From NCBI GenBank assembly GCA_015068345.1, contig SVKS01000007.1, forward strand, positions 1-52,031: a stretch of 52,031 nucleotides of DNA, given 5' to 3'. Shown one piece after another: positions 2,551 to 33,730 of the stretch. Origin of the DNA: Oscillospiraceae bacterium (GTDB taxonomy: Bacteria; Bacillota; Clostridia; Oscillospirales; QAMX01). Within the stretch, counting starts at the first letter, position 1; every line of letters starts with the position of its first letter. The notes under the pieces were generated by a model. The model was not told the origin of the DNA. It searched no databases and saw only the letters and a list, made by a program, of their open reading frames with translations. The position numbers were made by a program, and so were the translations under genes.

Positions 2551-2822
2551 TTGTCTTACGTTCCTTTTAAGAATTACTGGGCTCCATTAGATTTTTCTTA
2601 CCAACGGCTTTCTTCATGAAATTTCGTACCATCCTTTCGGACGGTTACCTCTAGATCATAATTTTGCCTTTTGTTAATTTTTCTCTATTTGTTGCCTTAC
2701 TTTGCTTTTATGTCTTCTCTTCTCTTTATTCGGTTTTCAAGGTACGTCTTTCCTTCTCTCGTTTCCGATTGAAGGTTTCAACACTCAAATTTCTTTGAAT
2801 GTTCAAATCCTCAGTCGAAGAA

Positions 2823-18536: not shown

Positions 18537-19295
18537 TCACGATTCACTTCCCGAGTTAAAATAGATACCCCGGTAAAGTTCTACCGTCAAGGGCACCTCC
18601 ACCGTGGTGGGCGGATTCCCTTCAAACGTCACTGTGGCTTTCTTTCGGTCAGATACCACTTCCACCCTTCCCGTGGGATTGGCTCCCATATAACCTGAAA
18701 GACTATCAGCGGTGTGACGGGCAACATGTTCCACCAGTTCGGATTTTGTCATGTTGGCATCCGCTTCCCGGAACAGACGCCAAAGAGCCATACCATCACC
18801 GTTGTGGATTTCCAACTGCAATACTGCTCTGTTGTCCATGTCGACCATCATATCGGCAATCCAGCCGCTGTTAAAATGGATTTCCACCTGCCATACCCGA
18901 ATTACCACGTTGTCGGACAAAAGTGCCAGCATATCTACTGCAATGGTCTCATGCAGATACAAAGGCTCCTCCACAAGATCGTTCAGCAGGACAATAGTCA
19001 TTTCGATCGCTTCCTCACTGATTGAAAAATTATCCGCCTCATGATCCAGCATATCGTTTGGCACGACTACCACTCCATCCCGGAATTCCGCCAACCTCCG
19101 GGCCACCGTCCGGCTTTTTAGAAGCTTTTCCGTCTCTCCGGCATTTTCTATATCGGTTCCCAGTATCGGTTCCTCGGCTGCAAAGGCTTCCGGGTCCACT
19201 AGGTTTTCGTCCAAAATCAACATATAACCTCTTGGCAGAAAAAAACCCACCACCAGAGCCAGAAGGAGCAGGCCCACCGGTATCAATTTCCTCAT
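18537..19295 (-). CDS. Membrane-anchored protein of the VanRS-like operon
   Basis: A 252-residue protein with an N-terminal membrane segment (LIPVGLLLLALVVGFFLP, residues 4-21) and an extracytoplasmic remainder of about 230 residues that I do not recognise. Its start overlaps the stop of the sensor kinase by four bases (ATGA), so it is translationally coupled. Such third genes of VanRS-like operons are often accessory sensors or kinase modulators; that role is a guess from position. Confidence 0.78.
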   Translation of the reverse strand: MRKLIPVGLLLLALVVGFFLPRGYMLILDENLVDPEAFAAEEPILGTDIENAGETEKLLKSRTVARRLAEFRDGVVVVPNDMLDHEADNFSISEEAIEMTIVLLNDLVEEPLYLHETIAVDMLALLSDNVVIRVWQVEIHFNSGWIADMMVDMDNRAVLQLEIHNGDGMALWRLFREADANMTKSELVEHVARHTADSLSGYMGANPTGRVEVVSDRKKATVTFEGNPPTTVEVPLTVELYRGIYFNSGSES

Positions 19296-20689
19296 ACAGC
19301 CCCCTCCTTCAAAATCACGCTGACGCAGGTTCCCTTCCCCTCGATGCTTTCAAATTGAAGTTCTCCTCCGTGGTATTGGACAATCTCGTTACACAAACTA
19401 AGTCCCAATCCGGCGCCGCCCTGGGCCCGGGAGCGGGATTTGTCCACCCGGTAAAATGCCTCGGTTAAATGGCTGATGACCTCCGGTGGCATCCCACGGC
19501 CGTTGTCGATAACCCGGATGCGGCAATCCCCGTCGGGGAAATCCAGAACCATAGCAACCATACCTTCCTTTTCCATAGCCTTGCGGGCATTGTCCAGGAG
19601 ATTGGTCAGCACCGATTCCATCAAAGCCGCATCCATGCGCCATTTACCAGGGGTCGTACGGCACTCCAAACGGATACCGCTTTGCATCAACACGGGACGC
19701 ATTTTTTTCGCCGTCCGCTCCACCAACCGGTTCACCTCCACCCATTCCAGGTCGGGGGTTTCATTTTTGGCAAGATGCAGAGACAGGAGCTTCAGAGACA
19801 GGCTTTCCAGCCGTTTTCCTTCGGTAAAAATATAGTTGGCCGCCTCCTGGGCGTCCCTGGCATTCATTTCCTGCCCCCGGAGCAGGTCAGCATAGCCAAT
19901 GATGGAGGTCATGGGGGTCTTGAGCTCGTGAGCAAAGCTCCCCATAAACCGTTCCTGGGCTTCCACCGTCTCCTCCATATCCCGGATATTGCTTTGAAGA
20001 CGATCGGCCATGTGGTTAAAGTCCCGGGCCAGGGCACCCACCTCGTCTCTGGAGCGGGTCCGGATCCGAACGCCCAGGTCACCCCCCGCCATTTTTCGGG
20101 CAGCCACCGACATTTTCCCAAGCGGACGGGTCAGTGCCGCCGTCAGCAGAAAGCTGATGATAGCCCCCGCCACCAGGGTGACAAGAAAAACCCACTGGAA
20201 GGTGACAAGCATGCTCTCCCGGTCTCTATACACGTCGCTGATATCGGTCACCAGGGTCAAAATCACCCGTTCCTCCCCCATCCGGATTCCTCCGGAAAGC
20301 CCGATATAGGCGGCACTCTCCTTTTCACCGGTACGAAATACCTGGAGAACCAACTGGTTCTCCTGCGGTTCCTGCACAGCCTCCGGAAAAATCTTCCCCT
20401 GCTCCAGGAATACCTTCCCGTCCCGGGTCAATCTCCAGGCCGCCGCATCCACTGCCGTATCCAATCGGTTCATGGTATCCTGCCAGGTTTCGGTACTGCT
20501 TTCCCCCGATCCGGTGGCAATGCGAAGCTCCATGGTGGACACGATCATCCGATAATGCTCCCGACAGGCATCCTTTTCCCGGGCAATAGCCCCCAAAAAA
20601 GAATGCTCCACCATAAAAGCACCCCCCACCCCCAGGGCTACCGACAAAAGCCACACCATGGCAAGCAGAATTTTGGTCCGAAACTTCAT
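19292..20689 (-). CDS. Sensor histidine kinase, VanS-like
   Basis: A 465-residue membrane kinase. A first membrane segment at about 7-25 and a second at 163-185 enclose an extracytoplasmic sensor domain of about 135 residues. A HAMP linker follows, then the phosphoacceptor His254 in FAHELKTPMTSIIGY. The ATP-binding domain has its N box TNLLDNARKA, G1 box IDNGRGMP and G2 box GGAGLGLSL. The ATG follows the response regulator stop directly, so both are made together. With the divergent FemAB and VanY genes it probably watches the cell wall; the signal itself is unknown. Confidence 0.92.
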   Translation of the reverse strand: MKFRTKILLAMVWLLSVALGVGGAFMVEHSFLGAIAREKDACREHYRMIVSTMELRIATGSGESSTETWQDTMNRLDTAVDAAAWRLTRDGKVFLEQGKIFPEAVQEPQENQLVLQVFRTGEKESAAYIGLSGGIRMGEERVILTLVTDISDVYRDRESMLVTFQWVFLVTLVAGAIISFLLTAALTRPLGKMSVAARKMAGGDLGVRIRTRSRDEVGALARDFNHMADRLQSNIRDMEETVEAQERFMGSFAHELKTPMTSIIGYADLLRGQEMNARDAQEAANYIFTEGKRLESLSLKLLSLHLAKNETPDLEWVEVNRLVERTAKKMRPVLMQSGIRLECRTTPGKWRMDAALMESVLTNLLDNARKAMEKEGMVAMVLDFPDGDCRIRVIDNGRGMPPEVISHLTEAFYRVDKSRSRAQGGAGLGLSLCNEIVQYHGGELQFESIEGKGTCVSVILKEGAV

Positions 20690-21343
20690 TCACACCTCCA
20701 GGCGATAGCCCACCTTGTTCACCGCACGGAGTTTCTTTTCCCAGCCCACCTTTTTGCGAAGCCGCTGGATGTGCAGATCCACCGTTTTGCTGCCGTAGGG
20801 GTATTCCTCGTTCCATACCCGTTCGTAAATGGTTTCCCGATAGAGAGCTACGTTGGGGTTCCGGGCAAAAAGCAACAGCAAATCGTATTCCTTTGGCGTC
20901 AGCTTCAAAAGTATACCCTTCCGTTCCACCGTTCTGGCCACCGTGTCGATGAGCAGATCCCCCACCGTCATAAGCGATTCGGTCTTGTTGTAACGTCGAA
21001 GCACCACGTCCACCCGGGCTAATAACTCCAGAATTTCAAATGGCTTTACAATGTAATCCTCAGCCCCCATGCGAAGGCCCTTCACCCGGTCCATGACATT
21101 GTTCATGGCGGTGATAAATATCACCGGCACCCCCATGGGGCGAATATATTCCATCAGCGAAAACCCATCCATTTGGGGAAGCATCACGTCCAGTAGGATC
21201 AGGTCATAGCTGTGTTGTTCCAGAAAATCCATAGCCTCCAGCCCGTCGTAGGCCGCATCGCAGGTGTACCCCGCCCGTTTCAGGCTCATACGGATCAGGT
21301 TATTAATAGGTTTTTCATCTTCAACAATCAAAATATGAATCAC
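20690..21343 (-). CDS. OmpR-family response regulator, VanR-like
   Basis: A 217-residue regulator. The receiver domain has the acidic pocket VEDE, the phosphoacceptor Asp52 in LILLDVMLPQMDG, the switch threonine in FITAMNN and Lys101-like lysine in YIVKPFE. The C-terminal winged helix (about 125-217) ends with KTVDLHIQRLRKKVG and VNKVGYRLEV. It should bind tandem repeats with 11-base period, and two such sites lie just upstream of its own promoter and of the divergent operon. Confidence 0.93.
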   Translation of the reverse strand: MIHILIVEDEKPINNLIRMSLKRAGYTCDAAYDGLEAMDFLEQHSYDLILLDVMLPQMDGFSLMEYIRPMGVPVIFITAMNNVMDRVKGLRMGAEDYIVKPFEILELLARVDVVLRRYNKTESLMTVGDLLIDTVARTVERKGILLKLTPKEYDLLLLFARNPNVALYRETIYERVWNEEYPYGSKTVDLHIQRLRKKVGWEKKLRAVNKVGYRLEV

Positions 21344-21364: not shown

Positions 21365-21397
21365 AGTATAACATAAAGTGTCATCAAAACGGCATCA
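21365..21397 (-). promoter_or_regulatory. Response regulator promoter with OmpR-type tandem site
   Basis: On the minus strand the -10 box is TATACT (21365-21370) and there is no good -35 box. Instead CATCA at 21382-21386 and 21393-21397 (TGATG on the minus strand) form a tandem repeat with 11-base period that ends exactly 11 bases from the -10 box. This is the layout of promoters activated by OmpR-family regulators, suggesting self-activation. Confidence 0.65.
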
Positions 21398-21459
21398 TTT
21401 TTCGACAAATTTCCTGTCGTAAAAATATTTTTTCAAAATTTGCCAAGGTGTTGCCGGTC

Positions 21460-21492
21460 TGATGCCATTTTGATGGATTGCCCGCTTACAAT
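21460..21492 (+). promoter_or_regulatory. FemAB-VanY operon promoter with OmpR-type tandem site
   Basis: TGATG at 21460-21464 and 21471-21475 repeat with an 11-base period. Exactly 11 bases further is the -10 box TACAAT (21487-21492), again without a clear -35 box. The 16-base unit TGATGCCATTTTGATG is the mirror image of the one serving the response regulator, with one base changed. Confidence 0.65.
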
Positions 21493-21513: not shown

Positions 21514-22521
21514 ATGATCGAATACCTTACCCTGCAAAATCCCCGGGAACTGGATCTTTTCGTGGCTTCTCACACTCGGGGACACTACATGCAAACCGCC
21601 GCTTACGGCAAAAGCCGCTCCGATTACCACTGGAGTTGTGTGGTTTTGCGAAATGATAACGGCGAAATCTATGCCTCCATAGCACTCCTCTCCCGCAAAA
21701 TCCGCATGACCCCTTGCCGAATTTTTTACGCTCCCCGGGGACCGGTTTTCTCGAATCTTACGGAATTCAAAGAGATCTGCACTGCCGCCCGGGATTACTG
21801 CCATCAGCAGGGGGGATACCTTTTACGAATGGATCCTCCCATCCTGGAGAACGACCCAATTTACCCCCATCAAATCCGGAATATGGGCTTTCATATTGAT
21901 CCCCGGGACGACTATTCTGCTTACCAACCCCGGCACGTTTATCAGCTGTCTCTTTTGGGCAAAAGCGAGGACAAGCTTCTTGCCTCCTTTCACCCTAAAA
22001 CCCGCTATAATATCCGCCTGGCCAGCCGCCGGGGTCTTGTCATTCGGGACGGAAATCGGCGGGACCTGCCCATCTTCCACGCCATGATGCGGGAAACCGC
22101 CGCCCGGGACGGATTTCAACCCCGTCCCATAACCTTCTTTGACGATCTTCTCACCGCCATGGGCTCCAACGCCAGCCTTCTGTTGGCTGAAAAAGATGGA
22201 AACGTATTGGCGGGAGCCATTCTGATCGTCCTTGGTAACAAAGCTTGGTACGCCTTCGGCTGTTCCTTTGATGCCGGACGTTCCAATATGCCAAACCACC
22301 TTCTGCAATGGGAAATGATACGTCGTGCACGATGGTTTGGTTGCTCTCTCTTTGACCTGCGCGGGGTTGAGGGGTTACCCTCGCCTCTCAACCCTGCCTA
22401 CGGTCTTCACCACTTCAAGCAAGGCTTCGGATCCCACTTCGTCTCTTATCTGGGACAGATGGATCTTCCCCTTCGCCCCGGGTGGTATTTCTTTATTCAA
22501 ACCCTCCATCGCTTCCTGTAA
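21514..22521 (+). CDS. FemAB-family peptidoglycan bridge aminoacyltransferase
   Basis: A 336-residue member of the FemABX group, which adds amino acids from aminoacyl-tRNA to the side chain of peptidoglycan precursors at the inner face of the membrane. The fold shows as two GNAT-like halves: FYAPRGPVF near residue 73, the substrate region LLASFHPKTRYNIRLASRRG near residue 160, and LAGAILIVLGNKAWYAFGCS near residue 230 with FDLRGVEG and HFKQGFGS near the end. The long coiled-coil arm of FemA is absent. The ATG has a perfect AAGGAGGT. It leads an operon with the carboxypeptidase, divergent from the VanRS-like system. Confidence 0.88.
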   Translation: MIEYLTLQNPRELDLFVASHTRGHYMQTAAYGKSRSDYHWSCVVLRNDNGEIYASIALLSRKIRMTPCRIFYAPRGPVFSNLTEFKEICTAARDYCHQQGGYLLRMDPPILENDPIYPHQIRNMGFHIDPRDDYSAYQPRHVYQLSLLGKSEDKLLASFHPKTRYNIRLASRRGLVIRDGNRRDLPIFHAMMRETAARDGFQPRPITFFDDLLTAMGSNASLLLAEKDGNVLAGAILIVLGNKAWYAFGCSFDAGRSNMPNHLLQWEMIRRARWFGCSLFDLRGVEGLPSPLNPAYGLHHFKQGFGSHFVSYLGQMDLPLRPGWYFFIQTLHRFL

Positions 22522-22542: not shown

Positions 22543-23340
22543 ATGGTCGAGCAAGCCCGCCCTCTTCCCAAAGGAAAGAAAAAAAGAAAAAAGCAAATTC
22601 CGCTTTCCCTGCCTCGCTGGGTCTGGCTTTCCCTTGGGCTATTCCTTTTTATTCTTCTCTTGCTTTTGGTTCGTCCAAAGGAGCCAAAATTAACTACCAT
22701 CTCCTTTCTTACCGGAGAGAAGGCCATCCCTGCCGATGTGCAAAAGGTCTCCTCCTCCCACTCTGTTGGTTCGTCCCAATGGAATCTGATACTGGTGAAC
22801 CGATGGCATACCCTGCCGGAAGGGTTTCAGGTGGAATTGACGCAGCTTCGAAATAACCATGCCATTGACTCCCGGGCTTACCCCGACCTGCAGGACATGA
22901 TGGACGATATGCGCACCCAAGGACTTTCTCCCTTGATCTGTTCCTCCTACCGCACCACCGCCGACCAGGAAAAGCTGTTTACCGATCAAACCCAAAAGCA
23001 GCTTGCCCAGGGACTTTCCCAAAAGGACGCCCAGACGGAAGCCGCTCTGCTGGTGGCTCTTCCGGGTACCAGCGAACACCAAACCGGCCTGGCGGTGGAC
23101 ATTGTGGACACCTCCTACCAGCTTCTGGAAACCGATCAGGAGAATACTCCGGTCCAAATCTGGCTCCACCGGAATGCCTGGCAATACGGCTTCATTCTGC
23201 GTTACCCCCGGGGAAAGACCCAGCTCACCGGCAAATCTTACGAGCCCTGGCACTATCGCTACGTGGGTAAAGATGTCGCCCGGGAGATCCACCAAAGCGG
23301 GCTCTGCCTGGAGGAATACCTGAACGACACCCATAGCTGA
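22543..23340 (+). CDS. D-alanyl-D-alanine carboxypeptidase, VanY/M15 family
   Basis: A 265-residue cell wall peptidase with a basic cytoplasmic tail (residues 1-24) and one membrane anchor (about 25-43); the catalytic domain faces outward. The zinc site is complete: SEHQTGLAVD gives His179 and Asp186, and EPWHYRY gives the catalytic Glu234 and His237. SSYRTTADQ near residue 135 is the conserved substrate motif. It would remove terminal D-Ala from stem peptides. The gene starts 21 bases after FemAB. The pair with VanRS-like regulation resembles wall-remodelling or glycopeptide-response modules, but no vanHAX genes are present. Confidence 0.92.
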   Translation: MVEQARPLPKGKKKRKKQIPLSLPRWVWLSLGLFLFILLLLLVRPKEPKLTTISFLTGEKAIPADVQKVSSSHSVGSSQWNLILVNRWHTLPEGFQVELTQLRNNHAIDSRAYPDLQDMMDDMRTQGLSPLICSSYRTTADQEKLFTDQTQKQLAQGLSQKDAQTEAALLVALPGTSEHQTGLAVDIVDTSYQLLETDQENTPVQIWLHRNAWQYGFILRYPRGKTQLTGKSYEPWHYRYVGKDVAREIHQSGLCLEEYLNDTHS

Positions 23341-33040: not shown

Positions 33041-33730
33041 ATGACTAAAAAAATGCTGATTGCGGAAGATGATTCCAACATTGCGGTTCTTCTCCGCCTT
33101 TATATGGAAAAAGAAGGATATGAGGTTACCATCGCCTCCGACGGCGGGGAAGCTCTCCGCCTTTATCGCACCGTTCGCCCCCACATCATTCTTTTGGATG
33201 TGATGATGCCGGTGGCAGACGGTTGGCAGGTTTGCAACGAAATCCGCAAGGACAGCGACGTCCCCATTATCATGCTGACCGCCCGGGGGGAAACCAGCGA
33301 CAAGGTGTCCGGATTGGACAGCGGTGCCGACGATTATATCGTCAAACCCTTCGAAATGCGGGAGGTTATCGCCCGGGTCAATGCCGTTATGCGCCGGACC
33401 CTGTCTGCCGAGTCGGTAAATACCCATTCGGTTTCCTTCGATAACCTTTTCATCAATTTGGACAACTATCAGCTCTACCTGCGGGGCAAGCTGGTGGACG
33501 TGCCCCCCAAGGAAATCGAACTGCTTTATTTCCTGGCTTCCAACCCCCACAAGGTATTCACCCGGGAGCAGCTTCTGGACCACGTTTGGGGCTTTGAATA
33601 CACCGGGGATACCCGCACAGTGGACGTACACATTAAGCGTCTGCGAGAAAAGCTGGATGGGGTCAGCAACAGATGGATGTTGAAAACCGTATGGGGTGTC
33701 GGTTACAAGTTCGAGCTTGTTAATTTATGA
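33041..33730 (+). CDS. OmpR-family response regulator
   Basis: A 229-residue regulator. The receiver has AEDD at residues 8-11, the phosphoacceptor Asp53 in ILLDVMMP, threonine in MLTARGET and lysine in YIVKPFE. The winged helix (about 130-225) ends in TRTVDVHIKRLREKLDG and TVWGVGYKFE. It is closest in look to PhoP/WalR-type regulators. CAAGGAGG precedes the ATG, and a TATAAT lies at 32953-32958. Its last bases overlap the kinase start. Confidence 0.92.
   Translation: MTKKMLIAEDDSNIAVLLRLYMEKEGYEVTIASDGGEALRLYRTVRPHIILLDVMMPVADGWQVCNEIRKDSDVPIIMLTARGETSDKVSGLDSGADDYIVKPFEMREVIARVNAVMRRTLSAESVNTHSVSFDNLFINLDNYQLYLRGKLVDVPPKEIELLYFLASNPHKVFTREQLLDHVWGFEYTGDTRTVDVHIKRLREKLDGVSNRWMLKTVWGVGYKFELVNL

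Follow-up and report, generated by a model that had tools for sequence, protein, structure and literature searches.

In the genome of an Oscillospiraceae bacterium, the operon of a two-component system and an operon for two cell-wall enzymes diverge from a shared intergenic region that contains two mirror-image sequence units. The locus raises the question whether these units are the sites by which the response regulator (RR) controls its own operon together with the adjoining wall genes. The window, i.e. the whole stretch of DNA that was analysed, comprises 52,031 nucleotides, and all coordinates of the locus refer to it.

The divergent operons and their mirror-image units

The following features were annotated, with operators scored by a position weight matrix (PWM):

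18537..19295, minus strand: third gene of the RR operon, N-terminally anchored extracytoplasmic protein, 252 aa; a counterpart follows the kinase in relatives
19292..20689, minus strand: sensor histidine kinase (HK), 465 aa, Pfam domains HAMP, HisKA and HATPase_c
20690..21343, minus strand: OmpR-family RR, receiver and winged-helix, 217 aa, GTG start; Pfam PF00072 and PF00486 over cut-off
21365..21370, minus strand: TATACT, the -10 box of the RR operon, separated from the operator by 11 nt; spacing conserved
21382..21397, minus strand: predicted tandem operator TGATGCC GTTT TGATG of the RR operon (TGATGCCGTTTTGATG, read from 21397 to 21382); a PWM built without this operator gives it a score of 16.9
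21449..21455, plus strand: TGTTGCC, a third and weaker box in phase with the 11-bp period, PWM 15.9; present also in G015, a genome of the same genus
21460..21475, plus strand: predicted tandem operator TGATGCC ATTT TGATG of the femAB-vanY operon (TGATGCCATTTTGATG), PWM 17.8; its counterpart in G253, a species of another family, is TGTTGCCGTTTGGATG
21487..21492, plus strand: TACAAT, the -10 box of the femAB-vanY operon, separated from the operator by 11 nt; TACCAT at 11 nt in G253
21514..22521, plus strand: FemAB/FemX-type peptidoglycan branch aminoacyltransferase, 335 aa; PF02388, E 1.2e-47
22543..23340, plus strand: VanY-type carboxypeptidase (D,D or L,D), 265 aa; PF02557, E 1.9e-38

Both units harbor two TGATG boxes with a period of 11 bp, and together they form a 16-nt inverted repeat with 15/16 matches (one mismatch), whose arms are 62 nt apart. 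The gap between unit and -10 box amounts to exactly 11 nt on either strand (TACAAT at 21487-21492, TATACT at 21370-21365), and a search for sigma-70 -35 matches 16-18 nt from the -10 boxes returned none at either promoter. An earlier note, made from the letters of this DNA, had described the mirror-image units and their 11-base period correctly to the base, and its claims of a distance of 11 bases to each -10 box and of two promoters without a good -35 box hold as well. The third box on the femAB side, located exactly 11 nt upstream of the plus-strand unit, had been overlooked there.

The FemAB protein scores 99 bits against the FemX model (cut-off 500) and the VanY-type protein 186 bits against vanY_BG (cut-off 400), both below the threshold. 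No Pfam domain was found in the 252-aa third protein. Its structure model (pLDDT 76) yielded no identity by fold, with zero Foldseek matches in the PDB at E <= 0.001; a profile search of the PDB gave nothing significant, and the best VIA-align match, 4pw1 from C. leptum (Z 5.3), is itself an uncharacterised protein and does not stand out from common arrangements. A relation to PepSY was rejected, the single weak match (L050, E 3.6e-4) being below cut-off. The third protein is a probable accessory of the kinase by analogy, because wal operons also carry a gene for an extracytoplasmic accessory protein (PMC9210968). It evolves fast: anchored counterparts of 226-277 aa follow the kinase in L018, L020-L024, L050 and L202, often with an identity below 25%. 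A second OmpR-type regulator gene is located 12 kb off at 33053-33715 (plus strand); its product is 41% identical to the RR, and the motif is absent from its promoter.

Conservation of the boxes at regulator promoters

Across the order, KGATRC boxes at an 11-bp period followed by a -10 box are located upstream of RR orthologs. The ortholog set (n=31) was compiled from the family and the order (56-98% identity) plus two named MAGs; the control set of 94 promoters of other OmpR-type RRs included the paralogs of the window's genome and was partly obtained from a contig scan, which mostly returned unrelated regulators. Scoring was based on 12 positions with period 11 on the sense strand within 200 nt. 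Tandem boxes with at least 11/12 matches precede 18/31 RR orthologs in sense orientation, versus 1/31 in antisense orientation and 0/94 of the other OmpR-type regulators, and the Fisher p value of 9e-14 for the contrast between orthologs and controls is nominal, since the orthologs are related. Because the 12-position pattern had been drawn from the very sequences being scored, the test was repeated within 150 nt with the pattern of the earlier note, TGATG-N6-TGATG, leaving out the window and its near twin; at least 9/10 matches were found for 9/30 RR orthologs versus 0/94 others. Four RR promoters illustrate the arrangement:

L010: TGATGCCGTTTTGATG-N11-TATCCT
L011: GGATGCCGTTTTGATG-N11-TATACT
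L014: TGATGCAATTATGATG-N11-TATACT
L015: TGATACCGTAATGATA-N11-TATAAT

The RR ortholog of L017 is preceded by six tandem boxes, and the motif is absent within 200 nt of the RR homologs of L016, L045, L048, L050 and L051. In G253 (L202, 5262-5550), the operator promoter and the RR gene are almost 300 nt apart, and several inverted repeats in this interval give the impression of an inserted repeat element.

The distance to the -10 box was analysed with a PWM from regulator promoters, which was scanned over the fetched loci and provided 39 high-scoring, non-redundant 3'-most sites. In 14/39 of them, a hexamer that matches TATAAT in at least 5/6 positions is located at exactly 11 nt, compared with at most two at any other offset (4-21). 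Exact-pattern sites with a -10 box at 11 nt account for 16/69 in genomes with the RR versus 1/30 in genomes without it (p 0.019), and this lone exception is a perfect promoter in G017, a genome in which no RR was detected but whose assembly is 85% complete and might just not cover the gene. We discarded the excess of KGATRCNNNTNKGATR relative to its reversed form (80 versus 7) as evidence: TAG is part of the reversed pattern and is lacking in coding DNA, and RR-lacking genomes have similar counts of about 2 forward matches per Mb. Raw pattern counts provide no convincing enrichment over RR-lacking genomes, and position-dependent tests alone were retained. In this comparison, the head-to-tail boxes with their 11-bp period, the 11 nt to the -10 box, the missing -35 box and the association with RR orthologs emerge as conserved sequence features.

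Lying between the -10 box and the -35 area, the boxes could also serve to occlude the polymerase, and binding of the RR might result in repression of either promoter or of both, or in predominantly negative autoregulation. However, neither promoter has a -35 box able to work without an activator, and the fixed 11 nt to the -10 box across dozens of promoters is what sigma contact would require, while a repressor would tolerate other positions. We therefore regard repression as improbable and favor activation by the RR. A further alternative is that the boxes mainly serve another OmpR-type regulator or several whose specificities overlap, which would be in line with the presence of about ten OmpR-type regulators in the genome and with the ortholog-lacking promoter of G017. 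But none of the promoters of the 94 other regulators, those of the genome's own paralogs among them, contains the motif, which tracks the orthologs of this RR and adjoins the RR gene. In our estimate, this explanation is even less probable than repression, leaving the RR itself as the preferred user of its boxes.

Predicted targets within and beyond the locus

In G015 both operators are kept, with a single change inside them at a non-box position. RR and femAB are divergent again in G253, where the FemAB protein is 57% identical and facing sites are found on the regulator side (TGATGCCATTTTGATG-N11-TATGAT) and on the femAB side (TGTTGCCGTTTGGATG-N11-TACCAT). The congener G014 exhibits four boxes before femAB and three boxes at a free-standing vanY gene (TGTTACAACTTTGTTACAAGTCGGATA-N11-TATACT, some 45 nt upstream of the ATG), the femAB gene of G055 has one tandem site whose -10 box at 11 nt is not clear, and VanY is encoded downstream of regulator and kinase in G004 and G012. 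These sites and the placement of VanY argue for femAB and vanY as recurrent predicted targets in several gene arrangements, the site being present at a minority of the FemAB/VanY homologs only.

Between the four boxes and femAB of G014 (L242, about 2590-2680, minus strand), a terminator-like hairpin with a T run (GACCTGCCGGCACGCGGCAGGTCTTTTTTT) is located, which could represent either attenuation or the terminator of an upstream gene.

The exact pattern TGATG-N6-TGATG occurs in the 52-kb window in the two units alone, and with one mismatch there are 5 matches versus 3.6 expected from shuffles, which is unremarkable. An inverted repeat that arose by chance between divergent promoters would agree with this count, and the sequence of the window alone does not exceed chance for the one-mismatch pattern. 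The comparative tests do exceed it: sequence, period, strand and -10 distance are conserved across species, and the mirror pair recurs in another family (G253). A chance origin is refuted by these comparative data, and we assign it a virtually negligible probability; very probably, the mirror-image boxes are genuine binding sites by which the RR activates its own operon and the adjoining cell-wall genes.

Promoter-like sites with a -10 box at 11 nt also precede genes for an SH3-NlpC/P60 hydrolase (G018, G019), an Amidase_2 protein (G055) and lipoproteins (G162, G015, G014), and a weaker site was found for a polysaccharide-deacetylase-like lipoprotein of G055. Most predicted target products are secreted or wall-acting. 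The genome-wide search for the unit that the earlier note had proposed was conducted on the 2.8-Mb genome and revealed one further copy at <=1 mismatch, C78:33904 (L002, 1501-1516; also L189). This near-perfect operator, which is conserved in G015, precedes a gene for a solute-binding lipoprotein by about 100 nt; no -10 box was found at 11 nt from it. A very large family of lipoproteins of about 700 aa (L188, L215, L217, L218, L268), whose C-terminal parts are solute-binding-like, has 45 matches in the window's genome, with L188 lacking a Pfam match. Operator promoters precede several of its members in related genomes.

Class of the two-component system and proposed mechanism

The RR combines a receiver with an OmpR winged-helix domain, its operon encodes a HAMP-HisKA-HATPase kinase, a direct-repeat operator of about 11 bp is located upstream of this operon, and the operator occupies the place of the -35 box at a fixed distance to the -10 box. 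RR and HK are accordingly classified, on sequence grounds, as a putative PhoB-type autoactivated two-component system with a predicted envelope regulon. The closest solved relatives of the RR are MtrA, RegX3, PhoP and PmrA/BasR, and its best NCBIfam model is CseB (190 bits, below the cut-off of 350). An identity with VanR/VanS was rejected based on the scores for vanR_FM (172 versus a cut-off of 460), vanR_ACDEGLN (165 versus 350) and VanS (133 versus 400), and the 12-bp box YCGTANGAAAWT is not matched by the operators, which represent KGATRC at an 11-bp period (PMC4405338). The label 'VanRS-like' in the earlier note was too strong, given that both proteins are far below the curated cut-offs. 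WalR/WalK was likewise rejected: YycF reaches 158 bits (cut-off 340) and WalK, the best NCBIfam model of the HK, 187 bits (cut-off 725), and the regulator's own promoter exhibits KGATRC rather than TGTWAH-N5-TGTWAH without autoregulation (PMC9210968).

In the 92% complete assembly, no match to the VanX domain (PF01427) was found and the D-Lac/D-Ser ligase models remained below cut-off; the one clear D-Ala ligase is the housekeeping Ddl (436 bits versus a cut-off of 262). Control of a vanH/A/X- or vanG/XY/T-type cluster was rejected on the VanX domain and the ligase models, and the earlier claim of a response without vanHAX stands, within this assembly, for these two components.

At pho-box promoters, the -35 box is replaced. 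These promoters have a strict spacing to core promoter elements (PMC10294691), and PhoB binds direct-repeat units of 11 nt and contacts sigma (PMC4415409); direct repeats of such units are documented for the OmpR family (PMC4415409, PMC6222199). PhoB/PhoR resembles the present system in two head-to-tail 11-nt direct-repeat units, strict spacing and an autoregulated operon (PMC4415409, PMC10294691), but it has a TGTCAT-type box and phosphate genes instead of KGATRC-N5 and wall or envelope genes. VanR/VanS with vanY shares the OmpR-type regulator beside a VanY-type carboxypeptidase. Besides the resistance promoters, VanR and VanRB each bind the promoter of their own genes, VanRG shows no such self-binding, and the 12-bp VanR boxes (T/C)CGTANGAAA(T/A)T are located upstream of the -35 box (PMC4405338), whereas the present genome has neither such boxes at the locus nor a VanX domain or a D-Lac/D-Ser ligase over cut-off. 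WalR/WalK (YycFG) is comparable in its direct-repeat period of 6+5 nt, its wall hydrolase and envelope targets, the C. difficile kinase without an intracellular PAS domain and the operon with an extracytoplasmic accessory protein, but it differs in its box (TGTWAH-N5-TGTWAH) and in wal operons that are not autoregulated (PMC9210968), in contrast to KGATRC at the RR's own promoter. C. difficile RR_1586 is also a clostridial OmpR-type regulator that binds 11-nt repeats at its own operon; its box is DRTTAAGNWWW and its targets are sporulation and germination genes (PMC6222199), as opposed to KGATRC and envelope targets.

We infer the following mechanism. An envelope signal would reach the kinase, probably with participation of the anchored third protein, and the kinase would phosphorylate the RR. 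Two KGATRC boxes, spaced at the 11-bp period, would then be bound by an RR dimer in head-to-tail orientation. With its end 11 nt upstream of the -10 box, the last box would stand in for the -35 box, and the RR would for this reason recruit sigma-A polymerase as PhoB does. One operator would serve the RR's own operon, and the mirror operator with the weak third box would serve femAB-vanY. The former would represent positive feedback, and self-amplification follows if the action of the RR is positive, as presumed here. The earlier proposal of an OmpR-type activation geometry at the regulator's own and a wall operon gains support from the conservation at RR orthologs, independent targets, FemAB promoters and a free-standing vanY, with binding and activation as its presumptive parts. 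Taken as a whole, the model of RR operators, PhoB-like sigma-A recruitment, positive feedback and control of femAB-vanY is in our judgement highly probable.

The general OmpR-type architecture is already known, and the predicted box differs from those of VanR, WalR and RR_1586. A literature search of open-licence papers revealed no description of the KGATRC motif or of a VanY-FemAB two-component system. On balance, we lean slightly towards the view that RR, kinase and anchored third protein represent an undescribed, widespread clostridial system of envelope control with its own KGATRC code, an autoactivated counterpart of WalRK that would unite FemAB, VanY and wall hydrolases in one positive-feedback circuit. 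The predicted code provides a concrete operator and a testable target list for a regulator of poorly studied gut Clostridia, and it would place a FemAB-type transferase and a VanY-type carboxypeptidase in a single autoactivated envelope circuit that is not part of any vancomycin-resistance cluster. The motif and its fixed spacing to the -10 box may allow the prediction of target genes in unculturable species.
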